From: Mycteria americana
Lineage: Eukaryota > Chordata > Aves > Ciconiiformes > Ciconiidae
Length of the DNA stretch: 64,000 bases
NCBI RefSeq assembly: GCF_035582795.1
Contig: NC_134373.1
Coordinates: 33,078,501 to 33,142,500 of the forward strand
Direction of reading: 5' to 3'
Shown here: in pieces, positions 1 through 52,159 of the stretch
Numbering within the stretch: the stretch's first letter is position 1
How the letters are laid out: each line of letters begins with the position of its first letter
The notes under the pieces: generated by a model
Databases searched by the model: none
Told to the model about the DNA's origin: nothing
What the model saw: the letters and a program-made list of their open reading frames with translations, nothing else
Program-made: the position numbers and the translations under genes

Positions 1-225
1 CTTCCCCAACACTTTCCCCCTGAGCAAAGGCCAGCAGGGAAAGAGGGAAGAGTGGAGAGGATCCACAGCCTTCATCTGGGGACCTTTGTCTCCCCTGGGA
101 GAGGAACTCAGGGAAACGCGGGCAGGGGAACACGTCCCTGGCCGGGGGGGCTGCAGAGCTCCCTGGGAACGAGTTACTGCAACCTGTCCTCAGAAGGGGC
201 TGCCTGCGGGCTTTTTGCTCCTCAC

Positions 226-282
226 CTGGAGTTGCTGCTGATGTCGTCTCAGGTGGGGCAGTAGATGTTTTAGGGACATTTC
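226..282 (-). CDS. MUC13: Mucin mini-exon, array copy 1 from left (standard type)
   Basis: A 57-bp phase 1-1 exon. The acceptor is a pyrimidine-rich tract ending CCTTCCTCAG and the donor is CCAG|GTGAGG. It encodes the 19-residue repeat GNVPKTSTAPPETTSAATP, in which the first Gly codon is split across the junction. Eleven of the 19 residues are Thr, Ser or Pro, as expected for an O-glycosylated mucin domain. It is the most 3' array exon seen, and the gene continues off the left edge. Confidence 0.8.
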
Positions 283-1418
283 CTGAGGAAGGGAAAAGAA
301 GAGAGATGGTAGCAGTGATTAGTGTTGTGTGGAGGAAAAGTCCTGGGGAACACTGTGTGTGCAGGGTAACCTCTGAGCAGGTAAGCGGGGGACCTGCGTG
401 GGACTGAGCAGCCACAGCCCTGGGCAGCCTTGCCCTGCCTTGGGGCTCTCCCTGGCCGTGATGCCTGTGCAGTCTGACGCGTCCACGGCCCCTTCTCTCC
501 CACGTGCCAGGGCTCGAGCACGCGCCCCACACGCGCGCTGTATTGCCCCCAGCTCAGCTGCGCTCGCTGGCCACAGCCGGCCCAGCCACCGGCACACCTG
601 TGCCTCCCTGCTGGAAAGCTCCCTCCGCCTGCCCAAGGCAGCACCACACGGCCAGCAGCGGCTGCCAGAGCAGGTCGAGGGGTGTCATCAGCCTGCGTAC
701 AGCCACCACACCCCCCACTCCTCCATAGTGGCCGTCTCCCCACAAGCATTTGGAGGAACGTCGGAGGGAGCTGGTCTTTCCAGATGGTGGGCAGGCACGG
801 TGGGAAAGTGGGGTGCCAGCAGGAAGGATGCGCTCCTCCGAGCCCACCATGGAGGAAGAGCTGAGGGGGTGGCTTCCCCTCCTCAGGGTGGCCCCAGAAG
901 GAGCTTCAACCCACCGGCATGGGGCTCCTCAGCACCCCGCTGGGACGGGGCTTGCAGTGGCACGGAGGATGGATTCCTGGCTGGGACCGCTCCGTGGCCC
1001 CCACGACTCAGCCCCATGCCCCTGCGTGCCCCGGCTCCCTCCCTGCCCGTGCTCCAACGAGCCACGGGAACAACTCCCTGCAGGGCCCCGTCACCGGCTT
1101 GTCCTGGGCACCACGTCTGCAGGGATCCTCTTGCACCCGCGACTGGTGCGGGAGGCAAAGGCACCCAGCAGGACAAGAGCAGCCTCTTCAAATCTTCCCC
1201 AACACTTTCCCCCTGAGCAAAGGCCAGCAGGGAAAGAGGGAAGAGTGGAGAGGATCCACAGCCTTCATCTGGGGACCTTTGTCTCCCCTGGGAGAGGAAC
1301 TCAGGGAAACGCGGGCAGGGGAACACGTCCCTGGCCGGGGGGGCTGCAGAGCTCCCTGGGAACGAGTTACTGCAACCTGTCCTCAGAAGGGGCTGCCTGC
1401 GGGCTTTTTGCTCCTCAC

Positions 1419-1475
1419 CTGGAGTTGCTGCTGATGTCGTCTCAGGTGGGGCAGTAGATGTTTTAGGGACATTTC
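1419..1475 (-). CDS. MUC13: Mucin mini-exon, copy 2 (standard type)
   Basis: Identical in sequence and splice context to the standard copy: 57 bp, phase 1-1, repeat ending ETTSAATP. A CTAAT branch-point-like site lies about 40 nt upstream of the acceptor AG, within CACTAATCAC. Confidence 0.8.
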
Positions 1476-2611
1476 CTGAGGAAGGGAAAAGAAGAGAGAT
1501 GGTAGCAGTGATTAGTGTTGTGTGGAGGAAAAGTCCTGGGGAACACTGTGTGTGCAGGGTAACCTCTGAGCAGGTAAGCGGGGGACCTGCGTGGGACTGA
1601 GCAGCCACAGCCCTGGGCAGCCTTGCCCTGCCTTGGGGCTCTCCCTGGCCGTGATGCCTGTGCAGTCTGACGCGTCCACGGCCCCTTCTCTCCCACGTGC
1701 CAGGGCTCGAGCACGCGCCCCACACGCGCGCTGTATTGCCCCCAGCTCAGCTGCGCTCGCTGGCCACAGCCGGCCCAGCCACCGGCACACCTGTGCCTCC
1801 CTGCTGGAAAGCTCCCTCCGCCTGCCCAAGGCAGCACCACACGGCCAGCAGCGGCTGCCAGAGCAGGTCGAGGGGTGTCATCAGCCTGCGTACAGCCACC
1901 ACACCCCCCACTCCTCCATAGTGGCCGTCTCCCCACAAGCATTTGGAGGAACGTCGGAGGGAGCTGGTCTTTCCAGATGGTGGGCAGGCACGGTGGGAAA
2001 GTGGGGTGCCAGCAGGAAGGATGCGCTCCTCCGAGCCCACCATGGAGGAAGAGCTGAGGGGGTGGCTTCCCCTCCTCAGGGTGGCCCCAGAAGGAGCTTC
2101 AACCCACCGGCATGGGGCTCCTCAGCACCCCGCTGGGACGGGGCTTGCAGTGGCACGGAGGATGGATTCCTGGCTGGGACCGCTCCGTGGCCCCCACGAC
2201 TCAGCCCCATGCCCCTGGGTGCCCCGGCTCCCTCCCTGCCCGTGCTCCAACGAGCCACAGGAACAACTCCCTGCAGGGCCCCGTCACCGGCTTGTCCTGG
2301 GCACCACGTCTGCAGGGATCCTCTTGCACCCGCGACTGGTGCGGGAGGCAAAGGCACCCAGCAGGACAAGAGCAGCCTCTTCAAATCTTCCCCAACACTT
2401 TCCCCCTGAGCAAAGGCCAGCAGGGAAAGAGGGAAGAGTGGAGAGGATCCACAGCCTTCATCTGGGGACCTTTGTCTCCCCTGGGAGAGGAACTCAGGGA
2501 AACGCGGGCAGGGGAACACGTCCCTGGCCGGGGGGGCTGCAGAGCTCCCTGGGAACGAGTTACTGCAACCTGTCCTCAGAAGGGGCTGCCTGCGGGCTTT
2601 TTGCTCCTCAC

Positions 2612-2668
2612 CTGGAGTTGCTGCTGATGTCGTCTCAGGTGGGGCAGTAGATGTTTTAGGGACATTTC
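2612..2668 (-). CDS. MUC13: Mucin mini-exon, copy 3 (standard type)
   Basis: 57-bp phase 1-1 exon of the standard type (repeat ending ETTSAATP), with unchanged acceptor and donor. Confidence 0.8.
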
Positions 2669-3804
2669 CTGAGGAAGGGAAAAGAAGAGAGATGGTAGCA
2701 GTGATTAGTGTTGTGTGGAGGAAAAGTCCTGGGGAACACTGTGTGTGCAGGGTAACCTCTGAGCAGGTAAGCGGGGGACCTGCGTGGGACTGAGCAGCCA
2801 CAGCCCTGGGCAGCCTTGCCCTGCCTTGGGGCTCTCCCTGGCCGTGATGCCTGTGCAGTGTGACGCGTCCACGGCCCCTTCTCTCCCACGTGCCAGGGCT
2901 CGAGCACGCGCCCCACACGCGCGCTGTATTGCCCCCAGCTCAGCTGCGCTCGCTGGCCACAGCCGGCCCAGCCACCGGCACACCTGTGCCTCCCTGCTGG
3001 AAAGCTCCCTCCGCCTGCCCAAGGCAGCACCACACGGCCAGCAGCGGCTGCCAGAGCAGGTCGAGGGGTGTCATCAGCCTGCGTACAGCCACCACACCCC
3101 CCACTCCTCCATAGTGGCCGTCTCCCCACAAGCATTTGGAGGAACGTCGGAGGGAGCTGGTCTTTCCAGATGGTGGGCAGGCACGGTGGGAAAGTGGGGT
3201 GCCAGCAGGAAGGATGCGCTCCTCCGAGCCCACCATGGAGGAAGAGCTGAGGGGGTGGCTTCCCCTCCTCAGGGTGGCCCCAGAAGGAGCTTCAACCCAC
3301 CGGCATGGGGCTCCTCAGCACCCCGCTGGGACGGGGCTTGCAGTGGCACGGAGGATGGATTCCTGGCTGGGACCGCTCCGTGGCCCCCACGACTCAGCCC
3401 CATGCCCCTGGGTGCCCCGGCTCCCTCCCTGCCCGTGCTCCAACGAGCCACAGGAACAACTCCCTGCAGGGCCCCGTCACCGGCTTGTCCTGGGCACCAC
3501 GTCTGCAGGGATCCTCTTGCACCCGCGACTGGTGCGGGAGGCAAAGGCACCCAGCAGGACAAGAGCAGCCTCTTCAAATCTTCCCCAACACTTTCCCCCT
3601 GAGCAAAGGCCAGCAGGGAAAGAGGGAAGAGTGGAGAGGATCCACAGCCTTCATCTGGGGACCTTTGTCTCCCCTGGGAGAGGAACTCAGGGAAACGCGG
3701 GCAGGGGAACACGTCCCTGGCCGGGGGGGCTGCAGAGCTCCCTGGGAACGAGTTACTGCAACCTGTCCTCAGAAGGGGCTGCCTGCGGGCTTTTTGCTCC
3801 TCAC

Positions 3805-3861
3805 CTGGAGTTGCTGCTGATGTCGTCTCAGGTGGGGCAGTAGATGTTTTAGGGACATTTC
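3805..3861 (-). CDS. MUC13: Mucin mini-exon, copy 4 (standard type)
   Basis: 57-bp phase 1-1 exon of the standard type (repeat ending ETTSAATP), with unchanged acceptor and donor. Confidence 0.8.
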
Positions 3862-4997
3862 CTGAGGAAGGGAAAAGAAGAGAGATGGTAGCAGTGATTA
3901 GTGTTGTGTGGAGGAAAAGTCCTGGGGAACACTGTGTGTGCAGGGTAACCTCTGAGCAGGTAAGCGGGGGACCTGCGTGGGACTGAGCAGCCACAGCCCT
4001 GGGCAGCCTTGCCCTGCCTTGGGGCTCTCCCTGGCCGTGATGCCTGTGCAGTGTGACGCGTCCACGGCCCCTTCTCTCCCACGTGCCAGGGCTCGAGCAC
4101 GCGCCCCACACGCGCGCTGTATTGCCCCCAGCTCAGCTGCGCTCGCTGGCCACAGCCGGCCCAGCCACCGGCACACCTGTGCCTCCCTGCTGGAAAGCTC
4201 CCTCCGCCTGCCCAAGGCAGCACCACACGGCCAGCAGCGGCTGCCAGAGCAGGTCGAGGGGTGTCATCAGCCTGCGTACAGCCACCACACCCCCCACTCC
4301 TCCATAGTGGCCGTCTCCCCACAAGCATTTGGAGGAACGTCGGAGGGAGCTGGTCTTTCCAGATGGTGGGCAGGCACGGTGGGAAAGTGGGGTGCCAGCA
4401 GGAAGGATGCGCTCCTCCGAGCCCACCATGGAGGAAGAGCTGAGGGGGTGGCTTCCCCTCCTCAGGGTGACCCCAGAAGGAGCTTCAACCCACCGGCATG
4501 GGGCTCCCCAGCACCCCGCTGGGACGGGGCTTGCAGTGGCACGGAGGATGGATTCCTGGCTGGGACCGCTCCGTGGCCCCCACGACTCAGCCCCATGCCC
4601 CTGCGTGCCCCGGCTCCCTCCCTGCCCGTGCTCCAACGAGCCACGGGAACAACTCCCTGCAGGGCCCCGTCACCGGCTTGTCCTGGGCACCACGTCTGCA
4701 GGGATCCTCTTGCACCCGCGACTGGTGCGGGAGGCAAAGGCACCCAGCAGGACAAGAGCAGCCTCTTCAAATCTTCCCCAACACTTTCCCCCTGAGCAAA
4801 GGCCAGCAGGGAAAGAGGGAAGAGTGGAGAGGATCCACAGCCTTCATCTGGGGACCTTTGTCTCCCCTGGGAGAGGAACTCAGGGAAACGCGGGCAGGGG
4901 AACACGTCCCTGGCCGGGGGGGCTGCAGAGCTCCCTGGGAACGAGTTACTGCAACCTGTCCTCAGAAGGGGCTGCCTGCGGGCTTTTTGCTCCTCAC

Positions 4998-5054
4998 CTG
5001 GAGTTGCTGGTGTTCTCGTCACAGGTGGGGCAGTAGATGTTTTAGGGACATTTC
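4998..5054 (-). CDS. MUC13: Mucin mini-exon, copy 5 (variant VTRTPATP)
   Basis: 57-bp phase 1-1 exon with splice sites identical to the other copies but a different peptide, GNVPKTSTAPPVTRTPATP. Four base changes relative to the standard exon change four residues (E to V, T to R, S to T, A to P). The surrounding intron is almost unchanged. Confidence 0.8.
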
Positions 5055-6190
5055 CTGAGGAAGGGAAAAGAAGAGAGATGGTAGCAGTGATTAGTGTTGT
5101 GTGGAGGAAAAGTCCTGGGGAACACTGTGTGTGCAGGGTAACCTCTGAGCAGGTAAGCGGGGGACCTGCGTGGGACTGAGCAGCCACAGCCCTGGGCAGC
5201 CTTGCCCTGCCTTGGGGCTCTCCCTGGCCGTGATGCCTGTGCAGTGTGACGCGTCCACGGCCCCTTCTCTCCCACGTGCCAGGGCTCGAGCACGCGCCCC
5301 ACACGCGCGCTGTATTGCCCCCAGCTCAGCTGCGCTCGCTGGCCACAGCCGGCCCAGCCACCGGCACACCTGTGCCTCCCTGCTGGAAAGCTCCCTCCGC
5401 CTGCCCAAGGCAGCACCACACGGCCAGCAGCGGCTGCCAGAGCAGGTCGAGGGGTGTCATCAGCCTGCGTACAGCCACCACACCCCCCACTCCTCCATAG
5501 TGGCCGTCTCCCCACAAGCATTTGGAGGAACGTCGGAGGGAGCTGGTCTTTCCAGATGGTGGGCAGGCACGGTGGGAAAGTGGGGTGCCAGCAGGAAGGA
5601 TGCGCTCCTCCGAGCCCACCATGGAGGAAGAGCTGAGGGGGTGGCTTCCCCTCCTCAGGGTGACCCCAGAAGGAGCTTCAACCCACCGGCATGGGGCTCC
5701 CCAGCACCCCGCTGGGACGGGGCTTGCAGTGGCACGGAGGATGGATTCCTGGCTGGGACCGCTCCGTGGCCCCCACGACTCAGCCCCATGCCCCTGCGTG
5801 CCCCGGCTCCCTCCCTGCCCGTGCTCCAACGAGCCACGGGAACAACTCCCTGCAGGGCCCCGTCACCGGCTTGTCCTGGGCACCACGTCTGCAGGGATCC
5901 TCTTGCACCCGCGACTGGTGCGGGAGGCAAAGGCACCCAGCAGGACAAGAGCAGCCTCTTCAAATCTTCCCCAACACTTTCCCCCTGAGCAAAGGCCAGC
6001 AGGGAAAGAGGGAAGAGTGGAGAGGATCCACAGCCTTCATCTGGGGACCTTTGTCTCCCCTGGGAGAGGAACTCAGGGAAACGCGGGCAGGGGAACACGT
6101 CCCTGGCCGGGGGGGCTGCAGAGCTCCCTGGGAACGAGTTACTGCAACCTGTCCTCAGAAGGGGCTGCCTGCGGGCTTTTTGCTCCTCAC

Positions 6191-6247
6191 CTGGAGTTGC
6201 TGCTGATGTCGTCTCAGGTGGGGCAGTAGATGTTTTAGGGACATTTC
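6191..6247 (-). CDS. MUC13: Mucin mini-exon, copy 6 (standard type)
   Basis: 57-bp phase 1-1 exon of the standard type, with intact acceptor and donor. Confidence 0.8.
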
Positions 6248-7383
6248 CTGAGGAAGGGAAAAGAAGAGAGATGGTAGCAGTGATTAGTGTTGTGTGGAGG
6301 AAAAGTCCTGGGGAACACTGTGTGTGCAGGGTAACCTCTGAGCAGGTAAGCGGGGGACCTGCGTGGGACTGAGCAGCCACAGCCCTGGGCAGCCTTGCCC
6401 TGCCTTGGGGCTCTCCCTGGCCGTGATGCCTGTGCAGTCTGACGCGTCCACGGCCCCTTCTCTCCCACGTGCCAGGGCTCGAGCACGCGCCCCACACGCG
6501 CGCTGTATTGCCCCCAGCTCAGCTGCGCTCGCTGGCCACAGCCGGCCCAGCCACCGGCACACCTGTGCCTCCCTGCTGGAAAGCTCCCTCCGCCTGCCCA
6601 AGGCAGCACCACACGGCCAGCAGCGGCTGCCAGAGCAGGTCGAGGGGTGTCATCAGCCTGCGTACAGCCACCACACCCCCCACTCCTCCATAGTGGCCGT
6701 CTCCCCACAAGCATTTGGAGGAACGTCGGAGGGAGCTGGTCTTTCCAGATGGTGGGCAGGCACGGTGGGAAAGTGGGGTGCCAGCAGGAAGGATGCGCTC
6801 CTCCGAGCCCACCATGGAGGAAGAGCTGAGGGGGTGGCTTCCCCTCCTCAGGGTGGCCCCAGAAGGAGCTTCAACCCACCGGCATGGGGCTCCTCAGCAC
6901 CCCGCTGGGACGGGGCTTGCAGTGGCACGGAGGATGGATTCCTGGCTGGGACCGCTCCGTGGCCCCCACGACTCAGCCCCATGCCCCTGCGTGCCCCGGC
7001 TCCCTCCCTGCCCGTGCTCCAACGAGCCACGGGAACAACTCCCTGCAGGGCCCCGTCACCGGCTTGTCCTGGGCACCACGTCTGCAGGGATCCTCTTGCA
7101 CCCGCGACTGGTGCGGGAGGCAAAGGCACCCAGCAGGACAAGAGCAGCCTCTTCAAATCTTCCCCAACACTTTCCCCCTGAGCAAAGGCCAGCAGGGAAA
7201 GAGGGAAGAGTGGAGAGGATCCACAGCCTTCATCTGGGGACCTTTGTCTCCCCTGGGAGAGGAACTCAGGGAAACGCGGGCAGGGGAACACGTCCCTGGC
7301 CGGGGGGGCTGCAGAGCTCCCTGGGAACGAGTTACTGCAACCTGTCCTCAGAAGGGGCTGCCTGCGGGCTTTTTGCTCCTCAC

Positions 7384-7440
7384 CTGGAGTTGCTGCTGAT
7401 GTCGTCTCAGGTGGGGCAGTAGATGTTTTAGGGACATTTC
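7384..7440 (-). CDS. MUC13: Mucin mini-exon, copy 7 (standard type)
   Basis: 57-bp phase 1-1 exon of the standard type, with intact acceptor and donor. Confidence 0.8.
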
Positions 7441-8576
7441 CTGAGGAAGGGAAAAGAAGAGAGATGGTAGCAGTGATTAGTGTTGTGTGGAGGAAAAGTC
7501 CTGGGGAACACTGTGTGTGCAGGGTAACCTCTGAGCAGGTAAGCGGGGGACCTGCGTGGGACTGAGCAGCCACAGCCCTGGGCAGCCTTGCCCTGCCTTG
7601 GGGCTCTCCCTGGCCGTGATGCCTGTGCAGTGTGACGCGTCCACGGCCCCTTCTCTCCCACGTGCCAGGGCTCGAGCACGCGCCCCACACGCGCGCTGTA
7701 TTGCCCCCAGCTCAGCTGCGCTCGCTGGCCACAGCCGGCCCAGCCACCGGCACACCTGTGCCTCCCTGCTGGAAAGCTCCCTCCGCCTGCCCAAGGCAGC
7801 ACCACACGGCCAGCAGCGGCTGCCAGAGCAGGTCGAGGGGTGTCATCAGCCTGCGTACAGCCACCACACCCCCCACTCCTCCATAGTGGCCGTCTCCCCA
7901 CAAGCATTTGGAGGAACGTCGGAGGGAGCTGGTCTTTCCAGATGGTGGGCAGGCACGGTGGGAAAGTGGGGTGCCAGCAGGAAGGATGCGCTCCTCCGAG
8001 CCCACCATGGAGGAAGAGCTGAGGGGGTGGCTTCCCCTCCTCAGGGTGGCCCCAGAAGGAGCTTCAACCCACCGGCATGGGGCTCCTCAGCACCCCGCTG
8101 GGACGGGGCTTGCAGTGGCACGGAGGATGGATTCCTGGCTGGGACCGCTCCGTGGCCCCCACGACTCAGCCCCATGCCCCTGGGTGCCCCGGCTCCCTCC
8201 CTGCCCGTGCTCCAACGAGCCACAGGAACAACTCCCTGCAGGGCCCCGTCACCGGCTTGTCCTGGGCACCACGTCTGCAGGGATCCTCTTGCACCCGCGA
8301 CTGGTGCGGGAGGCAAAGGCACCCAGCAGGACAAGAGCAGCCTCTTCAAATCTTCCCCAACACTTTCCCCCTGAGCAAAGGCCAGCAGGGAAAGAGGGAA
8401 GAGTGGAGAGGATCCACAGCCTTCATCTGGGGACCTTTGTCTCCCCTGGGAGAGGAACTCAGGGAAACGCGGGCAGGGGAACACGTCCCTGGCCGGGGGG
8501 GCTGCAGAGCTCCCTGGGAACGAGTTACTGCAACCTGTCCTCAGAAGGGGCTGCCTGCGGGCTTTTTGCTCCTCAC

Positions 8577-8633
8577 CTGGAGTTGCTGCTGATGTCGTCT
8601 CAGGTGGGGCAGTAGATGTTTTAGGGACATTTC
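8577..8633 (-). CDS. MUC13: Mucin mini-exon, copy 8 (standard type)
   Basis: 57-bp phase 1-1 exon of the standard type, with intact acceptor and donor. Confidence 0.8.
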
Positions 8634-9769
8634 CTGAGGAAGGGAAAAGAAGAGAGATGGTAGCAGTGATTAGTGTTGTGTGGAGGAAAAGTCCTGGGGA
8701 ACACTGTGTGTGCAGGGTAACCTCTGAGCAGGTAAGCGGGGGACCTGCGTGGGACTGAGCAGCCACAGCCCTGGGCAGCCTTGCCCTGCCTTGGGGCTCT
8801 CCCTGGCCGTGATGCCTGTGCAGTCTGACGCGTCCACGGCCCCTTCTCTCCCACGTGCCAGGGCTCGAGCACGCGCCCCACACGCGCGCTCTATTGCCCC
8901 CAGCTCAGCTGCGCTCGCTGGCCACAGCCGGCCCAGCCACCGGCACACCTGTGCCTCCCTGCTGGAAAGCTCCCTCCGCCTGCCCAAGGCAGCACCACAC
9001 GGCCAGCAGCGGCTGCCAGAGCAGGTCGAGGGGTGTCATCAGCCTGCGTACAGCCACCACACCCCCCACTCCTCCATAGTGGCCGTCTCCCCACAAGCAT
9101 TTGGAGGAACGTCGGAGGGAGCTGGTCTTTCCAGATGGTGGGCAGGCACGGTGGGAAAGTGGGGTGCCAGCAGGAAGGATGCGCTCCTCCGAGCCCACCA
9201 TGGAGGAAGAGCTGAGGGGGTGGCTTCCCCTCCTCAGGGTGACCCCAGAAGGAGCTTCAACCCACCGGCATGGGGCTCCCCAGCACCCCGCTGGGACGGG
9301 GCTTGCAGTGGCACGGAGGATGGATTCCTGGCTGGGACCGCTCCGTGGCCCCCACGACTCAGCCCCATGCCCCTGCGTGCCCCGGCTCCCTCCCTGCCCG
9401 TGCTCCAACGAGCCACAGGAACAACTCCCTGCAGGGCCCCGTCACCGGCTTGTCCTGGGCACCACGTCTGCAGGGATCCTCTTGCACCCGCGACTGGTGC
9501 GGGAGGCAAAGGCACCCAGCAGGACAAGAGCAGCCTCTTCAAATCTTCCCCAACACTTTCCCCCTGAGCAAAGGCCAGCAGGGAAAGAGGGAAGAGTGGA
9601 GAGGATCCACAGCCTTCATCTGGGGACCTTTGTCTCCCCTGGGAGAGGAACTCAGGGAAACGCGGGCAGGGGAACACGTCCCTGGCCGGGGGGGCTGCAG
9701 AGCTCCCTGGGAACGAGTTACTGCAACCTGTCCTCAGAAGGGGCTGCCTGCGGGCTTTTTGCTCCTCAC

Positions 9770-9826
9770 CTGGAGTTGCTGCTGATGTCGTCTCAGGTGG
9801 GGCAGTAGATGTTTTAGGGACATTTC
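9770..9826 (-). CDS. MUC13: Mucin mini-exon, copy 9 (standard type)
   Basis: 57-bp phase 1-1 exon of the standard type, with intact acceptor and donor. Confidence 0.8.
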
Positions 9827-10962
9827 CTGAGGAAGGGAAAAGAAGAGAGATGGTAGCAGTGATTAGTGTTGTGTGGAGGAAAAGTCCTGGGGAACACTGT
9901 GTGTGCAGGGTAACCTCTGAGCAGGTAAGCGGGGGACCTGCGTGGGACTGAGCAGCCACAGCCCTGGGCAGCCTTGCCCTGCCTTGGGGCTCTCCCTGGC
10001 CGTGATGCCTGTGCAGTGTGACGCGTCCACGGCCCCTTCTCTCCCACGTGCCAGGGCTCGAGCACGCGCCCCACACGCGCGCTGTATTGCCCCCAGCTCA
10101 GCTGCGCTCGCTGGCCACAGCCGGCCCAGCCACCGGCACACCTGTGCCTCCCTGCTGGAAAGCTCCCTCCGCCTGCCCAAGGCAGCACCACACGGCCAGC
10201 AGTGGCTGCCAGAGCAGGTCGAGGGGTGTCATCAGCCTGCGTACAGCCACCACACCCCCCACTCCTCCATAGTGGCCGTCTCCCCACAAGCATTTGGAGG
10301 AACGTCGGAGGGAGCTGGTCTTTCCAGATGGTGGGCAGGCACGGTGGGAAAGTGGGGTGCCAGCAGGAAGGATGCGCTCCTCCGAGCCCACCATGGAGGA
10401 AGAGCTGAGGGGGTGGCTTCCCCTCCTCAGGGTGACCCCAGAAGGAGCTTCAACCCACCGGCATGGGGCTCCTCAGCACCCCGCTGGGACGGGGCTTGCA
10501 GTGGCACGGAGGATGGATTCCTGGCTGGGACCGCTCCGTGGCCCCCACGACTCAGCCCCATGCCCCTGCGTGCCCCGGCTCCCTCCCTGCCCGTGCTCCA
10601 ACGAGCCACAGGAACAACTCCCTGCAGGGCCCCGTCACCGGCTTGTCCTGGGCACCACGTCTGCAGGGATCCTCTTGCACCCGCGACTGGTGCGGGAGGC
10701 AAAGGCACCCAGCAGGACAAGAGCAGCCTCTTCAAATCTTCCCCAACACTTTCCCCCTGAGCAAAGGCCAGCAGGGAAAGAGGGAAGAGTGGAGAGGATC
10801 CACAGCCTTCATCTGGGGACCTTTGTCTCCCCTGGGAGAGGAACTCAGGGAAACGCGGGCAGGGGAACACGTCCCTGGCCGGGGGGGCTGCAGAGCTCCC
10901 TGGGAACGAGTTACTGCAACCTGTCCTCAGAAGGGGCTGCCTGCGGGCTTTTTGCTCCTCAC

Positions 10963-11019
10963 CTGGAGTTGCTGCTGATGTCGTCTCAGGTGGGGCAGTA
11001 GATGTTTTAGGGACATTTC
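10963..11019 (-). CDS. MUC13: Mucin mini-exon, copy 10 (standard type)
   Basis: 57-bp phase 1-1 exon of the standard type, with intact acceptor and donor. Confidence 0.8.
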
Positions 11020-12155
11020 CTGAGGAAGGGAAAAGAAGAGAGATGGTAGCAGTGATTAGTGTTGTGTGGAGGAAAAGTCCTGGGGAACACTGTGTGTGCA
11101 GGGTAACCTCTGAGCAGGTAAGCGGGGGACCTGCGTGGGACTGAGCAGCCACAGCCCTGGGCAGCCTTGCCCTGCCTTGGGGCTCTCCCTGGCCGTGATG
11201 CCTGTGCAGTGTGACGCGTCCACGGCCCCTTCTCTCCCACGTGCCAGGGCTCGAGCACGCGCCCCACACGCGCGCTGTATTGCCCCCAGCTCAGCTGCGC
11301 TCGCTGGCCACAGCCGGCCCAGCCACCGGCACACCTGTGCCTCCCTGCTGGAAAGCTCCCTCCGCCTGCCCAAGGCAGCACCACACGGCCAGCAGCGGCT
11401 GCCAGAGCAGGTCGAGGGGTGTCATCAGCCTGCGTACAGCCACCACACCCCCCACTCCTCCATAGTGGCCGTCTCCCCACAAGCATTTGGAGGAACGTCG
11501 GAGGGAGCTGGTCTTTCCAGATGGTGGGCAGGCACGGTGGGAAAGTGGGGTGCCAGCAGGAAGGATGCGCTCCTCCGAGCCCACCATGGAGGAAGAGCTG
11601 AGGGGGTGGCTTCCCCTCCTCAGGGTGGCCCCAGAAGGAGCTTCAACCCACCGGCATGGGGCTCCTCAGCACCCCGCTGGGACGGGGCTTGCAGTGGCAC
11701 GGAGGATGGATTCCTGGCTGGGACCGCTCCGTGGCCCCCACGACTCAGCCCCATGCCCCTGCGTGCCCCGGCTCCCTCCCTGCCCGTGCTCCAACGAGCC
11801 ACGGGAACAACTCCCTGCAGGGCCCCGTCACCGGCTTGTCCTGGGCACCACGTCTGCAGGGATCCCCTTGCACCCGCGACTGGTGCGGGAGGCAAAGGCA
11901 CCCAGCAGGACAAGAGCAGCCTCTTCAAATCTTCCCCAACACTTTCCCCCTGAGCAAAGGCCAGCAGGGAAAGAGGGAAGAGTGGAGAGGACCCACAGCC
12001 TTCATCTGGGGACCTTTGTCTCCCCTGGGAGAGGAACTCAGGGAAACGCGGGCAGGGGAACACGTCCCTGGCCGGGGGGGCTGCAGAGCTGCCTGGGAAC
12101 GAGTTACTGCAACCTGTCCTCAGAAGGGGCTGCCTGCGGGCTTTTTGCTCCTCAC

Positions 12156-12212
12156 CTGGAGTTGCTGGTGTTCTCGTCACAGCTGCGGCAGTAGATGTTT
12201 TAGGGACATTTC
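12156..12212 (-). CDS. MUC13: Mucin mini-exon, copy 11 (variant AAAVTRTPATP)
   Basis: 57-bp phase 1-1 exon encoding GNVPKTSTAAAVTRTPATP. It shares the VTRTPATP end with copy 5, seven kilobases away, and also changes the PP pair to AA. All differences from the standard exon alter the protein, and the splice sites are unchanged. Confidence 0.8.
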
Positions 12213-13348
12213 CTGAGGAAGGGAAAAGAAGAGAGATGGTAGCAGTGATTAGTGTTGTGTGGAGGAAAAGTCCTGGGGAACACTGTGTGTGCAGGGTAAC
12301 CTCTGAGCAGGTAAGCGGGGGACCTGCGTGGGACTGAGCAGCCACAGCCCTGGGCAGCCTTGCCCTGCCTTGGGGCTCTCCCTGGCCGTGATGCCTGTGC
12401 AGTCTGACGCGTCCACGACCCCTTCTCTCCCACGTGCCAGGGCTCGAGCACGCGCCCCACACGCGCGCTGTATTGCCCCCAGCTCAGCTGCGCTCGCTGG
12501 CCACAGCCGGCCCAGCCACCGGCACACCTGTGCCTCCCTGCTGGAAAGCTCCCTCCGCCTGCCCAAGGCAGCACCACACGGCCAGCAGCGGCTGCCAGAG
12601 CAGGTCGAGGGGTGTCATCAGCCTGCGTACAGCCACCACACCCCCCACTCCTCCATAGTGGCCGTCTCCCCACAAGCATTTGGAGGAACGTCGGAGGGAG
12701 CTGGTCTTTCCAGATGGTGGGCAGGCACGGTGGGAAAGTGGGGTGCCAGCAGGAAGGATGCGCTCCTCCGAGCCCACCATGGAGGAAGAGCTGAGGGGGT
12801 GGCTTCCCCTCCTCAGGGTGACCCCAGAAGGAGCTTCAACCCACCGGCATGGGGCTCCCCAGCACCCCGCTGGGACGGGGCTTGCAGTGGCACGGAGGAT
12901 GGATTCCTGGCTGGGACCGCTCCGTGGCCCCCACGACTCAGCCCCATGCCCCTGCGTGCCCCGGCTCCCTCCCTGCCCGTGCTCCAACGAGCCACAGGAA
13001 CAACTCCCTGCAGGGCCCCGTCACCGGCTTGTCCTGGGCACCACGTCTGCAGGGATCCTCTTGCACCCGCGACTGGTGCGGGAGGCAAAGGCACCCAGCA
13101 GGACAAGAGCAGCCTCTTCAAATCTTCCCCAACACTTTCCCCCTGAGCAAAGGCCAGCAGGGAAAGAGGGAAGAGTGGAGAGGACCCACAGCCTTCATCT
13201 GGGGACCTTTGTCTCCCCTGGGAGAGGAACTCAGGGAAACGCGGGCAGGGGAACACGTCCCTGGCCGGGGGGGCTGCAGAGCTCCCTGGGAACGAGTTAC
13301 TGCAACCTGTCCTCAGAAGGGGCTGCCTGCGGGCTTTTTGCTCCTCAC

Positions 13349-13405
13349 CTGGAGTTGCTGCTGATGTCGTCTCAGGTGGGGCAGTAGATGTTTTAGGGAC
13401 ATTTC
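13349..13405 (-). CDS. MUC13: Mucin mini-exon, copy 12 (standard type)
   Basis: 57-bp phase 1-1 exon of the standard type, with intact acceptor and donor. Its unit and the next one to the right are almost identical and share private variants. Confidence 0.8.
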
Positions 13406-14541
13406 CTGAGGAAGGGAAAAGAAGAGAGATGGTAGCAGTGATTAGTGTTGTGTGGAGGAAAAGTCCTGGGGAACACTGTGTGTGCAGGGTAACCTCTGAG
13501 CAGGTAAGCGGGGGACCTGCGTGGGACTGAGCAGCCACAGCCCTGGGCAGCCTTGCCCTGCCTTGGGGCTCTCCCTGGCCGTGATGCCTGTGCAGTCTGA
13601 CGCGTCCACGGCCCCTTCTCTCCCACGTGCCAGGGCTCGAGCACGCGCCCCACACGCGCGCTCTATTGCCCCCAGCTCAGCTGCGCTCGCTGGCCACAGC
13701 CGGCCCAGCCACCGGCACACCTGTGCCTCCCTGCTGGAAAGCTCCCTCCGCCTGCCCAAGGCAGCACCACACGGCCAGCAGCGGCTGCCAGAGCAGGTCG
13801 AGGGGTGTCATCAGCCTGCGTACAGCCACCACACCCCCCACTCCTCCATAGTGGCCGTCTCCCCACAAGCATTTGGAGGAACGTCGGAGGGAGCTGGTCT
13901 TTCCAGATGGTGGGCAGGCACGGTGGGAAAGTGGGGTGCCAGCAGGAAGGATGCGCTCCTCCGAGCCCACCATGGAGGAAGAGCTGAGGGGGTGGCTTCC
14001 CCTCCTCAGGGTGACCCCAGAAGGAGCTTCAACCCACCGGCATGGGGCTCCCCAGCACCCCGCTGGGACGGGGCTTGCAGTGGCACGGAGGATGGATTCC
14101 TGGCTGGGACCGCTCCGTGGCCCCCACGACTCAGCCCCATGCCCCTGCGTGCCCCGGCTCCCTCCCTGCCCGTGCTCCAACGAGCCACAGGAACAACTCC
14201 CTGCAGGGCCCCGTCACCGGCTTGTCCTGGGCACCACGTCTGCAGGGATCCTCTTGCACCCGCGACTGGTGCGGGAGGCAAAGGCACCCAGCAGGACAAG
14301 AGCAGCCTCTTCAAATCTTCCCCAACACTTTCCCCCTGAGCAAAGGCCAGCAGGGAAAGAGGGAAGAGTGGAGAGGACCCACAGCCTTCATCTGGGGACC
14401 TTTGTCTCCCCTGGGAGAGGAACTCAGGGAAACGCGGGCAGGGGAACACGTCCCTGGCCGGGGGGGCTGCAGAGCTCCCTGGGAACGAGTTACTGCAACC
14501 TGTCCTCAGAAGGGGCTGCCTGCGGGCTTTTTGCTCCTCAC

Positions 14542-14598
14542 CTGGAGTTGCTGCTGATGTCGTCTCAGGTGGGGCAGTAGATGTTTTAGGGACATTTC
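14542..14598 (-). CDS. MUC13: Mucin mini-exon, copy 13 (standard type)
   Basis: 57-bp phase 1-1 exon of the standard type, with intact acceptor and donor. Confidence 0.8.
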
Positions 14599-15734
14599 CT
14601 GAGGAAGGGAAAAGAAGAGAGATGGTAGCAGTGATTAGTGTTGTGTGGAGGAAAAGTCCTGGGGAACACTGTGTGTGCAGGGTAACCTCTGAGCAGGTAA
14701 GCGGGGGACCTGCGTGGGACTGAGCAGCCACAGCCCTGGGCAGCCTTGCCCTGCCTTGGGGCTCTCCCTGGCCGTGATGCCTGTGCAGTCTGACGCGTCC
14801 ACGGCCCCTTCTCTCCCACGTGCCAGGGCTCGAGCACGCGCCCCACACGCGCGCTCTATTGCCCCCAGCTCAGCTGCGCTCGCTGGCCACAGCCGGCCCA
14901 GCCACCGGCACACCTGTGCCTCCCTGCTGGAAAGCTCCCTCCGCCTGCCCAAGGCAGCACCACACGGCCAGCAGCGGCTGCCAGAGCAGGTCGAGGGGTG
15001 TCATCAGCCTGCGTACAGCCACCACACCCCCCACTCCTCCATAGTGGCCGTCTCCCCACAAGTATTTGGAGGAACGTCGGAGGGAGCTGGTCTTTCCAGA
15101 TGGTGGGCAGGCACGGTGGGAAAGTGGGGTGCCAGCAGGAAGGATGCGCTCCTCCGAGCCCACCATGGAGGAAGAGCTGAGGGGGTGGCTTCCCCTCCTC
15201 AGGGTGACCCCAGAAGGAGCTTCAACCCACCGGCATGGGGCTCCCCAGCACCCCGCTGGGACGGGGCTTGCAGTGGCACGGAGGATGGATTCCTGGCTGG
15301 GACCGCTCCGTGGCCCCCACGACTCAGCCCCATGCCGCTGGGTGCCCCGGCTCCCTCCCTGCCCGTGCTCCAACGAGCCACAGGAACAACTCCCTGCAGG
15401 GCCCCGTCACCGGCTTGTCCTGGGCACCACGTCTGCAGGGATCCTCTTGCACCCGCGACTGGTGCGGGAGGCAAAGGCACCCAGCAGGACAAGAGCAGCC
15501 TCTTCAAATCTTCCCCAACACTTTCCCCCTGAGCAAAGGCCAGCAGGGAAAGAGGGAAGAGTGGAGAGGATCCACAGCCTTCATCTGGGGACCTTTGTCT
15601 CCCCTGGGAGAGGAACTCAGGGAAACGCGGGCAGGGGAACACGTCCCTGGCCGGGGGGGCTGCAGAGCTCCCTGGGAACGAGTTACTGCAACCTGTCCTC
15701 AGAAGGGGCTGCCTGCGGGCTTTTTGCTCCTCAC

Positions 15735-15794
15735 CTGGAGTTGCTGCTGATGTCGTCTCAGGTGGGTCAGTAGATGTTCCATTGGTGACATTTC
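15735..15794 (-). CDS. MUC13: First mucin mini-exon of the array (60-bp variant with two sequons)
   Basis: This is the 5'-most array exon in transcription order. It is 60 bp long, one codon more than the others, and still phase 1-1. It encodes GNVTNGTSTDPPETTSAATP. Two N-glycosylation sequons (NVT and NGT) replace the VPK region of the standard repeat, and A becomes D. The signal-peptide exon at 19628-19685 ends in phase 1 with G and joins it in frame, giving ...SLPK-GNVTNG... at the predicted mature N-terminus. Confidence 0.8.
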
Positions 15795-16394
15795 CTGAGG
15801 AAGGGAAAAGAAGAGAGATGGTAGCAGTGATTAGTGTTGTGTGGAGGAAAAGTCCTGGGGAACACTGTGTGTGCAGGGTAACCTCTGAGCAGGTAAGCGG
15901 GGGACCTGCGTGGGACTGAGCAGCCACAGCCCTGGGCAGCCTTGCCCTGCCTTGGGGCTCTCCCTGGCCGTGATGCCTGTGCAGTCTGACGCGTCCACGG
16001 CCCCTTCTCTCCCACGTGCCAGGGCTCGAGCACGCGCCCCACACGCGCGCTCTATTGCCCCCAGCTCAGCTGCGCTCGCTGGCCACAGCCGGCCCAGCCA
16101 CCGGCACACCTGTGCCTCCCTGCTGGAAAGCTCCCTCCGCCTGCCCAAGGCAGCACCACACGGCCAGCAGCGGCTGCCAGAGCAGGTCGAGGGGTGTCAT
16201 CAGCCTGCGTACAGCCACCACACCCCCCACTCCTCCATAGTGGCCGTCTCCCCACAAGCATTTGGAGGAACGTCGGAGGGAGCTGGTCTTTCCAGATGGT
16301 GGGCAGGCACGGTGGGAAAGTGGGGTGCCAGCAGGAAGGATGCGCTCCTCCGAGCCCACCATGGAGGAAGAGATGAGGGAGTGCATTCCCCTTC

Positions 16395-16740
16395 TGTGTG
16401 GGCAGGATAACCTCTGAGCAGGTAAGTTGGAGACCTTCATGGGGCTGAACAGCTACAATCTTTGCAGCTTTGCTCTTACTTCGGGTTGTCCCCAGCTCCG
16501 ATGCCTCATTGCTACCTTGTATTGCCACGTAGTCCTTCTCCCACATCTTGGTGTTTGGCTCCTTCCCACCAATAGCACTTTTGTACCCTTCCCTCTTTCC
16601 TTCTCTAGGTGATTTTGGCATGCTGAGTTGCCCGCACAGGCATCTCTCCTTGCAGGAGAGCTTTCTCTGATTTCCTAATGCAGCACCACACTTCTGCACC
16701 GGCTGCCAGAGCAGGGTCACAGGCACCCCATTAGGTTGGG
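16395..16740. repeat. Diverged, exon-less partial copy of the 1,193-bp unit
   Basis: Immediately right of the array the sequence jumps back to an internal part of the unit. GGATAACCTCTGAGCAGG matches GGGTAACCTCTGAGCAGG of the standard unit. Alignable stretches continue through the GCAGCACCACAC and GGCTGCCAGAGCAGG segments, with many substitutions and indels between. The region that would contain the mini-exon is absent from this copy. Weaker similarity (TCTGACG, then CCCCTTCTCTTGC) may extend to about 16810. Confidence 0.8.
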
Positions 16741-17640
16741 CATACGCTCCAACCTGCGAGCTAGCAGAGCTGTGGTCTGACGTAGTGCCAGTGTTGCCCC
16801 CTTCTCTTGCTATGTCAATTTGCTTTTCTCATCCCCTAAACAAGCGGTGCTTTTACCATCATGCATCTTCAGTTGTTGTACTGGTTTTAATTAGATTTAC
16901 ATGACATTGCACTCCACCGTTAACATGTTCACAGTGACTCTTCATATTCTGCTCTAGACCTCAGATAAATCCACAAAAAATACATTTGCTGCAAGGTATG
17001 CATATATAGATATTTTGCAACCATGGAAGATGGTCTCAGGAGAAGTATCATTAAAAACTCTATATAGACTCTTTCAGAGCAGCAGTGGAAGAATGATTGC
17101 CTTTGCTAACACTTACACCTATGCTGTTACATATTCAAGTGGGCATTGAAAGCAGAGTATTTTTATTGAAGGAATGCATATTCTGCTAAATTATCATCAG
17201 TGATATCAAGACCCTCTTTCCAGGACTACACTTCCATGCAATTATGACAGTATACATTATTTTTTGTCATTCTTTTCCTTCCTTGTTATAATTCTTTCTG
17301 AATAAAGAGAAACCTGGCTGATACCAGACAATAGTTGAAGAAAATTTTCCTCACATTTTGGTTTCAGCATTACCTGTTATTACGTTTACTGTTCCGAAGT
17401 ATTTTATCTATTTATTTTTAGGGTGTTTATTTAATATTTAAACTATGTCATTCTTAACTCTTGATACAAGGAATCCTTTGGGGTTTTTCTGTCTAGAAGT
17501 AAGGAGAACAAATAATAAAACAGCCTTGCTGATAAATGTGTGATACTGACAAATGGCCAGTTTGGATCATATGATCTAACTTTAATCTGAATTAGTTAAT
17601 ATATGAGCTAAGAATAAACATATTTATTCTGAGTTAATGC

Positions 17641-17711
17641 CCCTGCAATCATAATTTAATCTAAGTCATTCTCAGCAATCATAATTTAATCTAAGTAAGT
17701 CATTCTCAACA
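17641..17711. repeat. Small tandem duplication (about 32-36 bp, two copies)
   Basis: The block GCAATCATAATTTAATCTAAG followed by TCATTCTCA occurs twice in succession. The second copy has an extra TAAG. It is a local duplication in putative intron 1 with no sign of function. Confidence 0.85.
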
Positions 17712-18922
17712 TGCAGCTGGAAGACTAATGTATTTGTGGCTGAAATCCTTGGCACTAACACACTTTTATAGCTGGTTTATTAAAAAAAAATTGCAAATCT
17801 CAACAGACATCTGAAAAATAGACTCCACTTTTCGAGAGCTTTGTAGGGCTTTGAAAATCCAAAGTGAGGCAAATTTTATAAACTTGTTTTCTTCTGATCA
17901 ATAAAGCTGATATAGAAAAGGCACCTCAAAAAGACAATGCCTGAAGTAATCCATTAGTCTCCTCCAGGTGAAGAGGAAACATGAGCAATTGTGCCAGTTG
18001 TCTGCCAAGGCTTCTGCCTCCACTGTTTACTGAGTCCTATAGGCAGCATTATTTGTTCCTGTCAATGTGAAGAAATGTACATTTTTCTTATACACTGATA
18101 ATATGAATCTATGTTGGTCACAAGCCACGGTTTTGTAGTATTGTTTATACTGCATTCTCAAAATGGATGTTGGGGCAGTAACCTCCTACAGAGCTAGTCC
18201 TTAGTCCTTGTAGAGCCTCTGGCTAACAGTTGTCCAGGAGCACCCTTTGGATCCAGGAAGAATCACATCCCTGGTGACAGCAGAGCACATGAGCTGCAAT
18301 TGAGCCTTGTTGGTGGGCTTGTCAAAGGTAACCTGAGCAAAGGTGGCTATTTTATGGCTCTATCTGCCTAGACCCAACCTTCTGTGTAAGGAAACAGGAT
18401 GTGTAATAGACTTAGGCATTTAGTACGGAGATAAAGAAATGGATGTTACAATCGAGGTTATGGAATAACAGAGACATCTGACTGCCGAGCAGAGCAGGGC
18501 CTTTGCCAGTAATATTCAAATGGACGCATCCTGCAGAGCTTTTACAATGTTTGCTTAGAATGAAAAAGGTTTCTGGGCAGGCCCATCCTGATGCAAAGTC
18601 TGTTCAAGTGAAAGACTCACATTGCTTTCAGTAGCTCTTGGGTCAAGATTTTTCACATCTTGCTGTTACCCACAAGCCTCCAAACAGAAAACCAACCAAC
18701 TGACAATCTTGAAGACTTCTATGCTTATAATGTATAGCTAAAAATTGGTCTGTAGCATTTTGTAGATGTTGCTGGAAATACATATGTTCATTCACAGTGG
18801 TCAACAGAAACCCACAACCATCTGTCACCAGTGGCAAGCTTAACAGCATCAGTGAAGGTCTTAATTTGGCTCATATCTCTGGACCTTTATCTCCATATTA
18901 GCTGGGAGTTCCTGTTCTCTCA

Positions 18923-19027
<105 letters not shown>

Positions 19028-19627
19028 TCAGGCGGACACTCTGGCCCACAACTACCGAGTTTGTCACAATGCCAGAAAAAGTAGTAAATGGCTTAAGGAA
19101 TGACACCTGCCCTTCAGTTTGAATAGACCATGGTGCAAGCCTCTGTCACCCAAGTTCATGGTGAAGTTCCCATTAATTAATTTCAACAGGAGGGAACAAA
19201 TGCTCTGTGAGTCAGCTCAGGCGGCACTGCTTTCCAGACTGATTGTTTAAGGAGCCTCTGGCCGGAAGGCCAGCGGCAGCACTCCTTTCCCCAGGTACTG
19301 GGGTGGAACAGTCACACCTTTTGTGATGACTGTAATAGAGCTTGAATTACCTGGGTTTAGTGTGCAGGTCCTGAAAACTGCTCTTGGAACAGGCTAAATT
19401 AGGTTAATCACAAGCACCAGTGCTTTTGCATTGTTCTGTGAACAAGGAAAACTGTTGGCTTGCAGTGACATTTTTCATCGTTAATTAATCAAAATCTGGA
19501 CATGCTGAATTGTGTATTGCCACTGACCTCCAGCCTCTCAGCAGCTGCTGAAAGTACTAAGCAATCCATTCACTGCCACAGAATAGCTGCCCTGATAAAT
19601 CCCGCAATAGAAGATAGTGTTTCTTAC

Positions 19628-19685
19628 CTTTCGGAAGGCTCAACACCAGGCTGAGCAACACAGCAAGGAATACACAGCATCTCAT
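19628..19685 (-). CDS. MUC13: First coding exon with signal peptide, MUC13-like membrane mucin
   Basis: ATG in a fair context (G at -3) opens 19 codons, MRCCVFLAVLLSLVLSLPK, then one base (G) before a strong GTAAG donor. A short N-terminus with Arg, an uninterrupted Leu/Val/Ala core and a polar end is a typical signal peptide. The exon ends in phase 1, the phase of all the mini-exons, so the spliced product reads on into the PTS repeats. MUC13 is a transmembrane mucin of epithelial surfaces, with a PTS domain followed by EGF, SEA, EGF and TM regions. The latter parts would lie left of the window. The name is inferred from strand and position directly downstream of HEG1, as in other vertebrates; a lineage-specific mucin is the alternative. 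Confidence 0.7.
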
Positions 19686-19839: not shown

Positions 19840-22800
19840 TGTTTTTCTTCCTCCTCAGGCTGGGAGGAGATTTCTGGACCTGCAATGTTCTTCCTTTAAG
19901 TCATAAATGCTTGAGACCTGTTGACACAAGGAAGTTACTGCTAAATAAGCTGACGTGGGAACTGAGAGCACACCAGCTATCTTCTGCCAGCTCTCCATAC
20001 AGACACCTTCAGTGCAAATTAAATGGAGGGTGTTGTATAACCTGTTCTTAAAGTGGAAGAAGCTATCCCATCCCAAGGCATGCTAATTATGCACTTGGAG
20101 CAGAGTACGTGGGATCCACATGCTCACTTCCTTTGCAATAAATTACCAGTACAGACAAGCTCTATACCTCAGACCCCAATTGTTCTTTCCTTATAAGCAA
20201 AATTTCTGCCAAAGCACTTCTTACTGCTCAACGGGTAAAAACAACAGACAACACCTGCATCTTTGACATCAAAGAAACAGAACTGACCTTGGTCCTTCTG
20301 GCAGCGATTATGGCTGTTCTGTTTGCTGCTATCTTATGTGTGTTACGGGCTCACTAAAGTGGTGTGGCAAGAGAAGGGGGAGCAGGCAGGACAGCCAGCA
20401 GGTGCTTGACTTTATCTGGGTGGCAGTCCTCCTTTCTCGAGAGGAAGAGACTTTTGGAAGCAGGGATGGTCAGGCTGGAGCAGGCAGCCCACAGCAGATC
20501 TAGAAATAAGAAATAGCCTGGAATGCCATGGAGCACGTAACACAGCTGTGACACAGGGAAAACAGGTGGGAGATAGACACCTTTTGCCTTTGCATCCCAG
20601 GAAGCCTCTGAAAATTGCTAGATAGAGACCCAGATGGGAAAAAAGGTCTCTGCAGGCAGGATCTGGTTTTCCCAAACCCCCTTATTTTTAGCTGCCTCAC
20701 CTGCCCGAGTTCTCTAGCTGAACAGTGTGTTTGTTTTGCTTTGTGCTCCAGTAAAATGCACTGCTTGACACCATTAAAAATTGGATGGCCCACGGTGGTT
20801 TCCAGTTCCTCCTTCCCAGGCAAGGGTGTCATTTCTCTCACTTCAAGGTCTGGGTGACCCTGGATCCTGCCACAACTGCCAGTAAAGTCTTTCTGTGAAA
20901 TAAACACAGGTTATCCTGTCATTATCAGACATGGACAAGAAGGATGAGCAACCCATTGGTGTATCCCCCACAAAGCCACCTCTAATGGCTGTGGAGCTGG
21001 TCTCCTCTGGCAAACTCCACTGCCAGCAACACTGGAAGGTTATGAACATGTTTCCAAATACGAAGTAACAGCGCTGCGTGTTAAACGCCTCTCTTCTTCC
21101 TTCACCTGTTTTTGTTTGATCTGCTGTTTTAAGAACAAGGCGTGCAGTCTCGTGTACTAATCTCATATATTCAGAAGGTGGCTCTCCTTTATGTTGGAGG
21201 GTGGGAGAGACCAGAAGTATTACTCAAATCATTCCTGAGTTTAGGGTTGTCCTAAACTTTTAACTTGCACTGAACCAGGAAACATCGGTGGCTTACGGAC
21301 AGCAAAAATGGTTGGGTGCCTCTCTGCTGGCACGGGGAACAAGTGGCTTCGTCCCTCTGCGCCCTGCCACGCAGACCTGCTCAGGGCGCTGAGCCCGAAA
21401 CGTGCGGTGTTTTGTCTGCATCTTCCTTTGCCCCTCCAGCCCCGAAGCCCCTCCAGTGCAGCCTGCTCCCCACGCCTACCCCTAGTCCCCACAGTGACCC
21501 CTGGCAGCACCTGCCCTGCCCCATGGCAGCCTGGGACTGGCCCGCAGCTCCTGAGGGAGCCCCATGGTGGACACCCTGCATGGTCACCTGGGTGGTTATG
21601 CCGGATGGGGGAAATCCCAAGCTCTGAGGGGAGGCCGGCATCAGGGTCTCAGTGTGGCCCGCCTGCCAGGGGGTGCAGTGCCAGGCCCAGGGCCCGGTCA
21701 TGAGGGCTGCCCTGGCCTTCCCCGGGGTGGTGGGCCTGCCCAGGGCAGGGGGCAGCAGCACAGGGGATCAGGCCAGGCTAGGGGGTCCCTCAGGAGCCGG
21801 CGCTGGGGGGGCCCTGGGCTCGAGGCAGCCCACGCTCGCTGTCAGGGAGCTGTGCGGCTGAGGGCGGTGGGGGACCGGGAGCAGCCAGGGCCCATCCCAC
21901 CGCCCCCAGCCAGGGAGCAGGGCTGGCCTGCAAGGGTGGCCAGGGTCAGAGCCAGCCCTGGGGCGGCCTGGGGCATGCTCGGGCCTCCTGCAGCCCCCCT
22001 CTCCCTCCAGCCACCCTTCCAGGCCATGCTGGATCCAGCTCCTGCCCCCGCTGCTGCTGCTCACTTCCATGCTAGTTGCCCATCCCAGCCCATTGGGTTC
22101 CTCTGGGCCTCTCCTTAAAACTCCCCTTTGCCAGGGAGCTGACAGAAATAGGGAAGGAAATGTCTGGGAAGCGTTTGGCACCAGAGCGCTGTGCCTCCCT
22201 GCTCGGGCAGAGTCCTGCCTCCACCCCAAGCCACCACCGCCCTCCCAGCTTCGCCTCAGGGAGCACCCGAAAACTAACCCCGAAGTCTCATTAGAATAAA
22301 GCGTTTCAGTCCTGAGCAGACTGTACTGTGAGCCCCCAGGGAGACCCAACAACCCCGGACACTGGCCATTTGGGGAGCCACAGCATGTGCTTCAGCTGGA
22401 AATTGGTGCGCAGAGAGGGACAAACCTGGCTGTGGAGGGTGTTTGGCAGAGCTGTATGCCACCAGTCCTCTGGCGATGTCCATCGCCCATATCTAGACTC
22501 TTCAGTCATCACGATACCTCCCCATTTTCCCATGCTGCCTCAAGGTGCAACTAGACTAATCCAGGTCTTAAAATCTCCCTGTTGGCTGTGAAGTTAGCGT
22601 GTAGGACCAGGGAACTTCCCAGAGCACTATTGAAAATGAGTGTCAGGTCTTCAGTAGGTGTAAATAGTGCAGCTCTGCTGGCTACACTGGTATCTACTGG
22701 TTGAGTGTGTAGTCCTGCACATTAAAACTGTTCTCTACAGTGAATGCACATCAGAAGCTGGCGTATTACCGTATTTTTAGAGTTCACTTCCATTCTTACC

Positions 22801-30676: not shown

Positions 30677-30826
30677 CTAAAAATAGTCTCTTCTTCTGGT
30701 TTCGTCACTAATGAAGGATGGATTGTATTGTCCAGGGTAGATGCATGAATGTCGAGATCCAGGCAAACCAGTGTAGGGAGGATAAAGTCCGTTTCTTTCC
30801 AGTTCAGGATTTCTTAGTCCAGTTGG
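30677..30826 (-). CDS. HEG1: HEG1 last coding exon (KRIT1-binding C-terminus)
   Basis: The exon begins in phase 0 after TAATACAG and encodes 49 residues, then TAG. The peptide starts PTGLRNPELERNG and ends NPSFISDETRRRDYF. This end is the conserved HEG1 signature: the terminal Tyr-Phe is the part known to dock on the KRIT1 FERM domain, linking HEG1 to the CCM complex at endothelial junctions. It is the strongest evidence for the gene's identity. Confidence 0.95.
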   Translation of the reverse strand, partial: PTGLRNPELERNGLYPPYTGLPGSRHSCIYPGQYNPSFISDETRRRDYF

Positions 30827-50597: not shown

Positions 50598-50653
50598 TAG
50601 GGTTAGGGTTAGGGTTAGGGTTAGGCTTAGGCTTAGGCTTAGGCTTAGGCTTA
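50598..50653 (+). repeat. Interstitial telomere-like repeat, TTAGGG switching to TTAGGC
   Basis: Four tandem TTAGGG hexamers are followed without break by five TTAGGC hexamers, then a degenerate TTAGG end. The tract sits in the HEG1 intron between the large mucin exon and the next one upstream, G-rich on the + strand. Confidence 0.95.
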
Positions 50654-52083: not shown

Positions 52084-52113
52084 CTGGAATTGCAAAGCAG
52101 AGATATACATGCA

Positions 52114-52116
<3 letters not shown>

Positions 52117-52152: not shown

Positions 52153-52159
<7 letters not shown>

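Follow-up and report, generated by a model that had tools for sequence, protein, structure and literature searches.

Can a mucin's Pro/Thr/Ser-rich (PTS) domain be built from many small exons, each of them copied together with its intron? The question is raised by a window of 64,000 nucleotides of the Mycteria americana genome (C9:33078501-33142500, the whole stretch of DNA analysed here), in which a long tandem array lies downstream of the first coding exon of a minus-strand gene. The analysis described below leads us to a probability of about 93% that the PTS domain of MUC13 in this bird consists of 20 serial phase 1-1 mini-exons, each copied with its intron.

A 1,193-bp array and its exons

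Self-comparison at lag 1193 places the in-window part of the array at 1..16393 on the minus strand. Identity at this lag is 96.8% over positions 1-16400, and every other lag between 1180 and 1205 gives 27.5-34.2%. Tandem Repeats Finder was used with a longest period of 500, so the 1,193-bp array is invisible to that program. Across the genome (1.35 Gb in 279 contigs), the whole array was found to comprise 20 units and 23.7 kb (C9:33071152-33094892), crossing the window start; the window and the eight genome stretches that we fetched contain no N. A 101-bp exon probe matched at least 20 places in the 1.35-Gb genome, all of them in the array (probe counts for repeats being lower bounds), and all 20 candidates were scored. 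On these matches a dispersed repeat or satellite was rejected. A contiguous coding repeat was also rejected: 1193 is not divisible by 3 and, because the longest open frame on either strand is only 288 codons, no frame runs through the array and its coding repeats cannot be contiguous.

Instead, every unit has a single short exon on the minus strand, preceded by a polypyrimidine tract that ends in CAG and followed by a GTGAGG donor. Fourteen such exons, all phase 1-1, lie in the window. PTS exon 1 of 20, at 15735..15794, is 60 bp long and encodes GNVTNGTSTDPPETTSAATP, which includes two N-X-T sequons. The other 13 are 57 bp each: exon 2 (14542..14598, encoding GNVPKTSTAPPETTSAATP), exon 3 (13349..13405), exon 4 (12156..12212, with the variant GNVPKTSTAAAVTRTPATP), exon 5 (10963..11019), exon 6 (9770..9826), exon 7 (8577..8633), exon 8 (7384..7440), exon 9 (6191..6247), exon 10 (4998..5054, with the variant GNVPKTSTAPPVTRTPATP), exon 11 (3805..3861), exon 12 (2612..2668), exon 13 (1419..1475) and exon 14 (226..282). 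PTS exons 15-20 lie beyond the window start, as do the EGF-like exon and the further exons described below. The array as a whole has 18 exons of 57 bp and two edge exons of 60 bp, near-identical and with one repeat per exon in 20 of 20 cases; they encode 18x19 + 2x20 = 382 residues, of which the window accounts for 13x19 + 20 = 267.

Most of this had been anticipated. The original prediction described an exact 1,193-bp period with a minus-strand exon in each unit, which the lag identity and the 14 copies bear out, and it took the repeat unit to be exon plus intron, with the PTS domain arising from copied whole units; the 14 window exons and the 20 genomic units agree with both. Its statement that all copies are phase 1-1 holds for 14/14 exons in the window and 20/20 in the array, and its minimum of 14 exons and 267 residues from 16.4 kb is correct for the window; the full array is larger. 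The 57-bp open segment that it assigned to every unit is present in 13 window copies; the segment at 15735-15794 is 60 bp.

Are these segments exons, or do they only look like exons? The unit has a GC content of 64.5%, compared with 46.1% in window positions 16801-48000, and 95% of its 1,193 bp is non-coding. Both properties would suit a GC-rich minisatellite that sits within intron 1 of MUC13 and in which the 57-bp segment is an unused pseudo-exon. The splice sites argue against this. We scored the minus strand of the window (4,779 AG and 3,491 GT sites) with simple matrices of approximate splice-site frequencies. The score of the array acceptors was reached by 14 of the 4,779 AG sites, which are the 14 array acceptors themselves, and the score of the array donors by 19 of the 3,491 GT sites, including all 14 array donors. 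When the unit was shuffled 1000 times with dinucleotides preserved, a phase 1-1 exon whose acceptor scored at least 11 and whose donor scored at least 7 never arose. Moreover, positions -40 to -1 of the acceptor and +1 to +10 of the donor are invariant across all 20 units. As judged from these sites, the array exons are probably spliced in Mycteria americana.

Traces of older units flank the array. At its gene-5' edge, 16394..16720 (minus strand) is a degenerate, exon-less and apparently old partial copy of the unit, identical at 213 of 315 aligned bases; at the other edge is a diverged 94-bp piece (C9:33070975-33071068, 72.8%). Directional differences between the unit and the 16394-16720 copy comprise 69 sites with S in the unit and W in the flank, and 14 of the reverse kind. 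Biased conversion fits this GC excess of the unit over the flank copy, and AT drift of the flank fits it too.

The gene and its neighbors

The gene is MUC13, the orthologue of chicken Muc13. Upstream and on the same strand lies HEG1, whose C-terminal coding end is at 30680..30820 (minus strand): of the final 26 residues of the protein, 24 are identical to those of PDB 3u7d_B (Protein HEG homolog 1). Downstream, at about C9:33004 kb on the minus strand and about 57 kb past the last Cys-rich exon of MUC13, is an exon of an integrin beta gene (best PDB match integrin beta-3, 2.2e-43), which we take from human gene order to be ITGB5. These two flanks, together with the in-phase EGF-like exon described below, raise to an identification what the original prediction had called probable. 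In chicken, human and mouse, too, Muc13 adjoins HEG and points the same way, according to the available portions of the chicken study (Lang, Hansson, Samuelsson 2006, PMC1552070), and for these two genes the order and polarity seen here agree with that published locus.

Several other features were observed around HEG1. Its PTS region, at 48378-61151 on the minus strand, looks like serial phase 1-1 exons too, with six candidates of 86-120 residues. Further candidates for HEG1 PTS exons occur among the open frames. Several of the candidates share the motif SSHQP...TEKR...STTATKGGGRTL, and the stretches 53826-54090 and 57250-57511 have 82% DNA identity. Between HEG1 and MUC13 exon 1, an open frame on the plus strand (20145-20357) contains a transmembrane-like stretch and has a Pfam match at chance level (Glycophorin_A, E 0.16). 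The segment directly upstream of MUC13 exon 1, 20001-22000, is GC-richer (55%) and could be a promoter-side island.

The order of exons is that of MUC13: a signal-peptide-like exon 1, 20 PTS exons and an in-phase EGF-like exon. The coding part of exon 1 (19628..19685, minus strand) begins with the start codon, encodes MRCCVFLAVLLSLVLSLPK and ends in phase 1 at AAAG/GTAAG; judged by eye from its hydrophobic stretch, it is a putative signal peptide. After the array, the EGF-like exon has a phase-1 acceptor and is entered in frame (G+GG AAC TCG TGT, GNSCNPDSC), encoding GNSCNPDSCGTNLAQCVALNSTFVCQCQYGFYYNNKDC. Its Pfam match to EGF_3 (E 0.0036) does not reach the curated cut-off, and its PDB sequence matches are Micronemal protein 6, L-selectin and protein S (best E 0.008), all of which we presume to be EGF-bearing chains. 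It is followed by a phase-1 exon starting GKIFPGVITL and by more Cys-rich exons. Three Cys-rich exons were compared with Pfam, giving sub-threshold EGF matches in two and none in the third. The C-terminal part also includes an exon with CPVGYSGDNC. The exons KIFPGVITL... and ...VTVTNLFMENSTADNETV resemble human MUC13; a Pfam search of these two candidates for SEA gave no match, the one weak hit being unrelated (FNG, E 0.018). A simple hydrophobicity scan between C9:33040000 and 33061500 found no transmembrane exon. Because Pfam detects no SEA and the EGF matches are sub-threshold, the assignment of C-terminal domains draws partly on exon order and on the likeness to human MUC13.

Could the PTS domain be encoded elsewhere in the gene? 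A looser scan for PTS exons accepted phase 1-1 candidates with an acceptor of at least 3, a donor of at least 2.5 and at least 35% Pro/Thr/Ser. Neither intron 1 (window 15800-19627) nor the interval from the array to the EGF-like exon yielded a further candidate. In C9:33040000-33072300, a search for single PTS exons returned the last array exon alone, under strict thresholds that would miss the short EGF exon as well. On these scans the array would supply the entire PTS domain; if it were a mere minisatellite, MUC13 would, at the thresholds used, have no PTS domain at all. The array exons are also in phase with both exon 1 and the EGF-like exon, and the chicken orthologue is reported, with EST support, to be spliced in this way (PMC1552070, in the portions available). 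We therefore regard an unused pseudo-exon in an intronic minisatellite as very improbable.

The features observed directly, namely sequence, phases, splice-site quality, unit count and gene neighbors, suggest the following model. Exon 1 would provide the signal peptide, and the 20 mini-exons would each add one Pro/Thr/Ser repeat of 19 or 20 residues before the C-terminal part begins with the in-phase EGF-like exon. The DNA unit that is copied is exon plus intron, 1,193 bp in all, and unequal exchange together with gene conversion would lengthen and homogenize the array. The product would be a membrane mucin with a stalk, predicted from its sequence to be O-glycosylated, whose length tracks the number of units.

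Stalk length could also vary by splicing. Because all the array exons are phase 1-1 and have lengths divisible by 3, gain, loss or skipping of a unit preserves the reading frame. The exons might thus be real but many of them skipped, the array serving as a reserve from which splicing sets the length of the PTS domain. This is compatible with the serial mini-exon model. With identical splice sites in all 20 exons, any subset would be in frame, and Lang et al. proposed for chicken that alternative splicing might set PTS length (PMC1552070, available portions). Strong sites in every copy nevertheless favor inclusion, and we consider widespread skipping rather unlikely.

Variation within the array

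Interior units have a mean identity of 99.5% (range 98.8-100%), and some match one another at all 1,193 positions. Mean identity to the interior is 98.6% for the first unit and 91.9% for the last, which differs mostly where the array ends. Unequal exchange and conversion acting in the interior would be expected to leave such a near-identical interior between divergent edges. Perfectly identical units in a single assembly could also mean that the unit number is an artefact of collapse or expansion, the more so as the assembly of Lang et al. is gapped at this locus in chicken (PMC1552070, available portions). Against this, many units can be told apart by their particular set of variants, the two edge units are unlike the interior ones and abut unique sequence, and no N interrupts the sequence. 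An assembly artefact is accordingly unlikely, and would bear on the count of units rather than on the design of the gene.

Within this homogeneous array, differences concentrate in the exon. In the 18 interior units, variable positions number 6 of 57 in the exon and 14 of 1136 in the intron (Fisher p 2e-4). Averaged over pairs of units, the difference per site is 0.0296 in the exon and 0.0035 in the intron, about 8 times higher in the exon. By comparison of codons with peptides, all six interior exon changes alter the protein. Four of the changes are linked within 12 bp and define a second exon type (PETTSA to PVTRTP), found in units 4, 10, 17 and 18; a clustering test gave p 0.011. The four copies of this type (12156-12212 and 4998-5054, with units 17 and 18 past the window start) sit on differing intron backgrounds. 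If the linked changes are taken as a single event, the counts over the 13 window units that carry a 57-bp exon become 3/57 and 12/1136 (p 0.03). As the excess of exon over intron variation weakens in this way, we do not claim selection: diversifying selection and one conversion event drawing on an older exon type fit the exon excess equally.

The edge exons, GNVTNGTSTDPPETTSAATP and GNATNGTSTDPPETTSAATP, share a different form. Each has 20 residues and two N-X-T sequons; in the 18 interior exons neither the 20-residue length nor any N-glycosylation sequon occurs. Because this form is present at both ends of the array, and because the chicken repeat is also 20 residues long, the edge form is probably the older one. 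Its sequons are predicted sites of N-linked glycosylation.

Taken together, the 8-fold exon excess, the protein-changing nature of all six changes, the four-change type on four backgrounds and the confinement of sequons to the edges suggest a tentative reading of the array as a coding VNTR, in which exchange homogenizes the 1,193-bp units and selection on the peptide drives the 57-bp exons apart. We hold this reading possible but doubtful. The original prediction likewise used the term VNTR, which for an array known from one assembly stands as a hypothesis about allele length. The array offers a clean test case of how an exon can out-diverge its own introns inside a homogenized array.

Comparison with known systems

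In human MUC2 and MUC13, according to the available portions of PMC3549977 and PMC1552070, a single large exon holds the PTS domain. These mucins share tandem PTS repeats with the gene described here, which divides them among many mini-exons. The original prediction knew of no mucin domain built from copied mini-exons, and in this respect it did not survive the literature. In chicken MUC2, ten PTS cassettes of 69 residues extend over exons 32-44/45 (Jiang, Applegate, Lossie 2013, PMC3549977, available portions). There too PTS cassettes are spread across exons with repeated flanking DNA, but that mucin is gel-forming, its exons are larger and irregular, and CysD domains lie between the blocks. 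Outside the mucins, the kringle IV type 2 (KIV-2) VNTR of human LPA has a unit of exons plus introns, 5.6 kb long and present in 1 to about 40 copies (PMC11462820, in the part available). It too is a protein-coding tandem array of exon-plus-intron units. Unlike the array described here, which is known from one assembly, it has two exons per unit, encodes a kringle in a non-mucin and is demonstrably polymorphic in copy number.

The closest precedent is chicken Muc13 itself, and the basic multi-exon design of the PTS domain was already published for it in 2006. As reported in the available portions of PMC1552070, its PTS domain lies on multiple near-identical exons with one repeat each. At least 12 such repeats, each 20 residues long, were counted there in a gapped assembly, and EST AJ452523 supports the arrangement; the PTS domain of the zebrafish homologue is also split over several exons, an observation given there as unpublished. 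Chicken and Mycteria americana have in common one repeat per near-identical exon, a signal sequence placed first and a HEG neighbor of the same polarity. They differ in that the chicken repeats have 20 residues, whereas 18 of the 20 repeats here have 19, and in that the chicken assembly has a gap where the 20-unit array is complete here. The text of PMC1552070, as far as it was available, does not describe exon plus intron as a single DNA period. Our search, which left most subscription journals outside its scope, found no later description of this repeat unit; the available portions of PMC8521165, PMC4136736, PMC4672187 and PMC5900928 merely name MUC13 or cite the 2006 paper. What is new here is thus the resolved array of 20 units, the copied DNA period, the 99.5% interior identity, the exon excess and the sequon-bearing edge exons. 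The locus that was gapped in the assembly of the chicken paper is now available as complete sequence, and the copied DNA period is visible in it.
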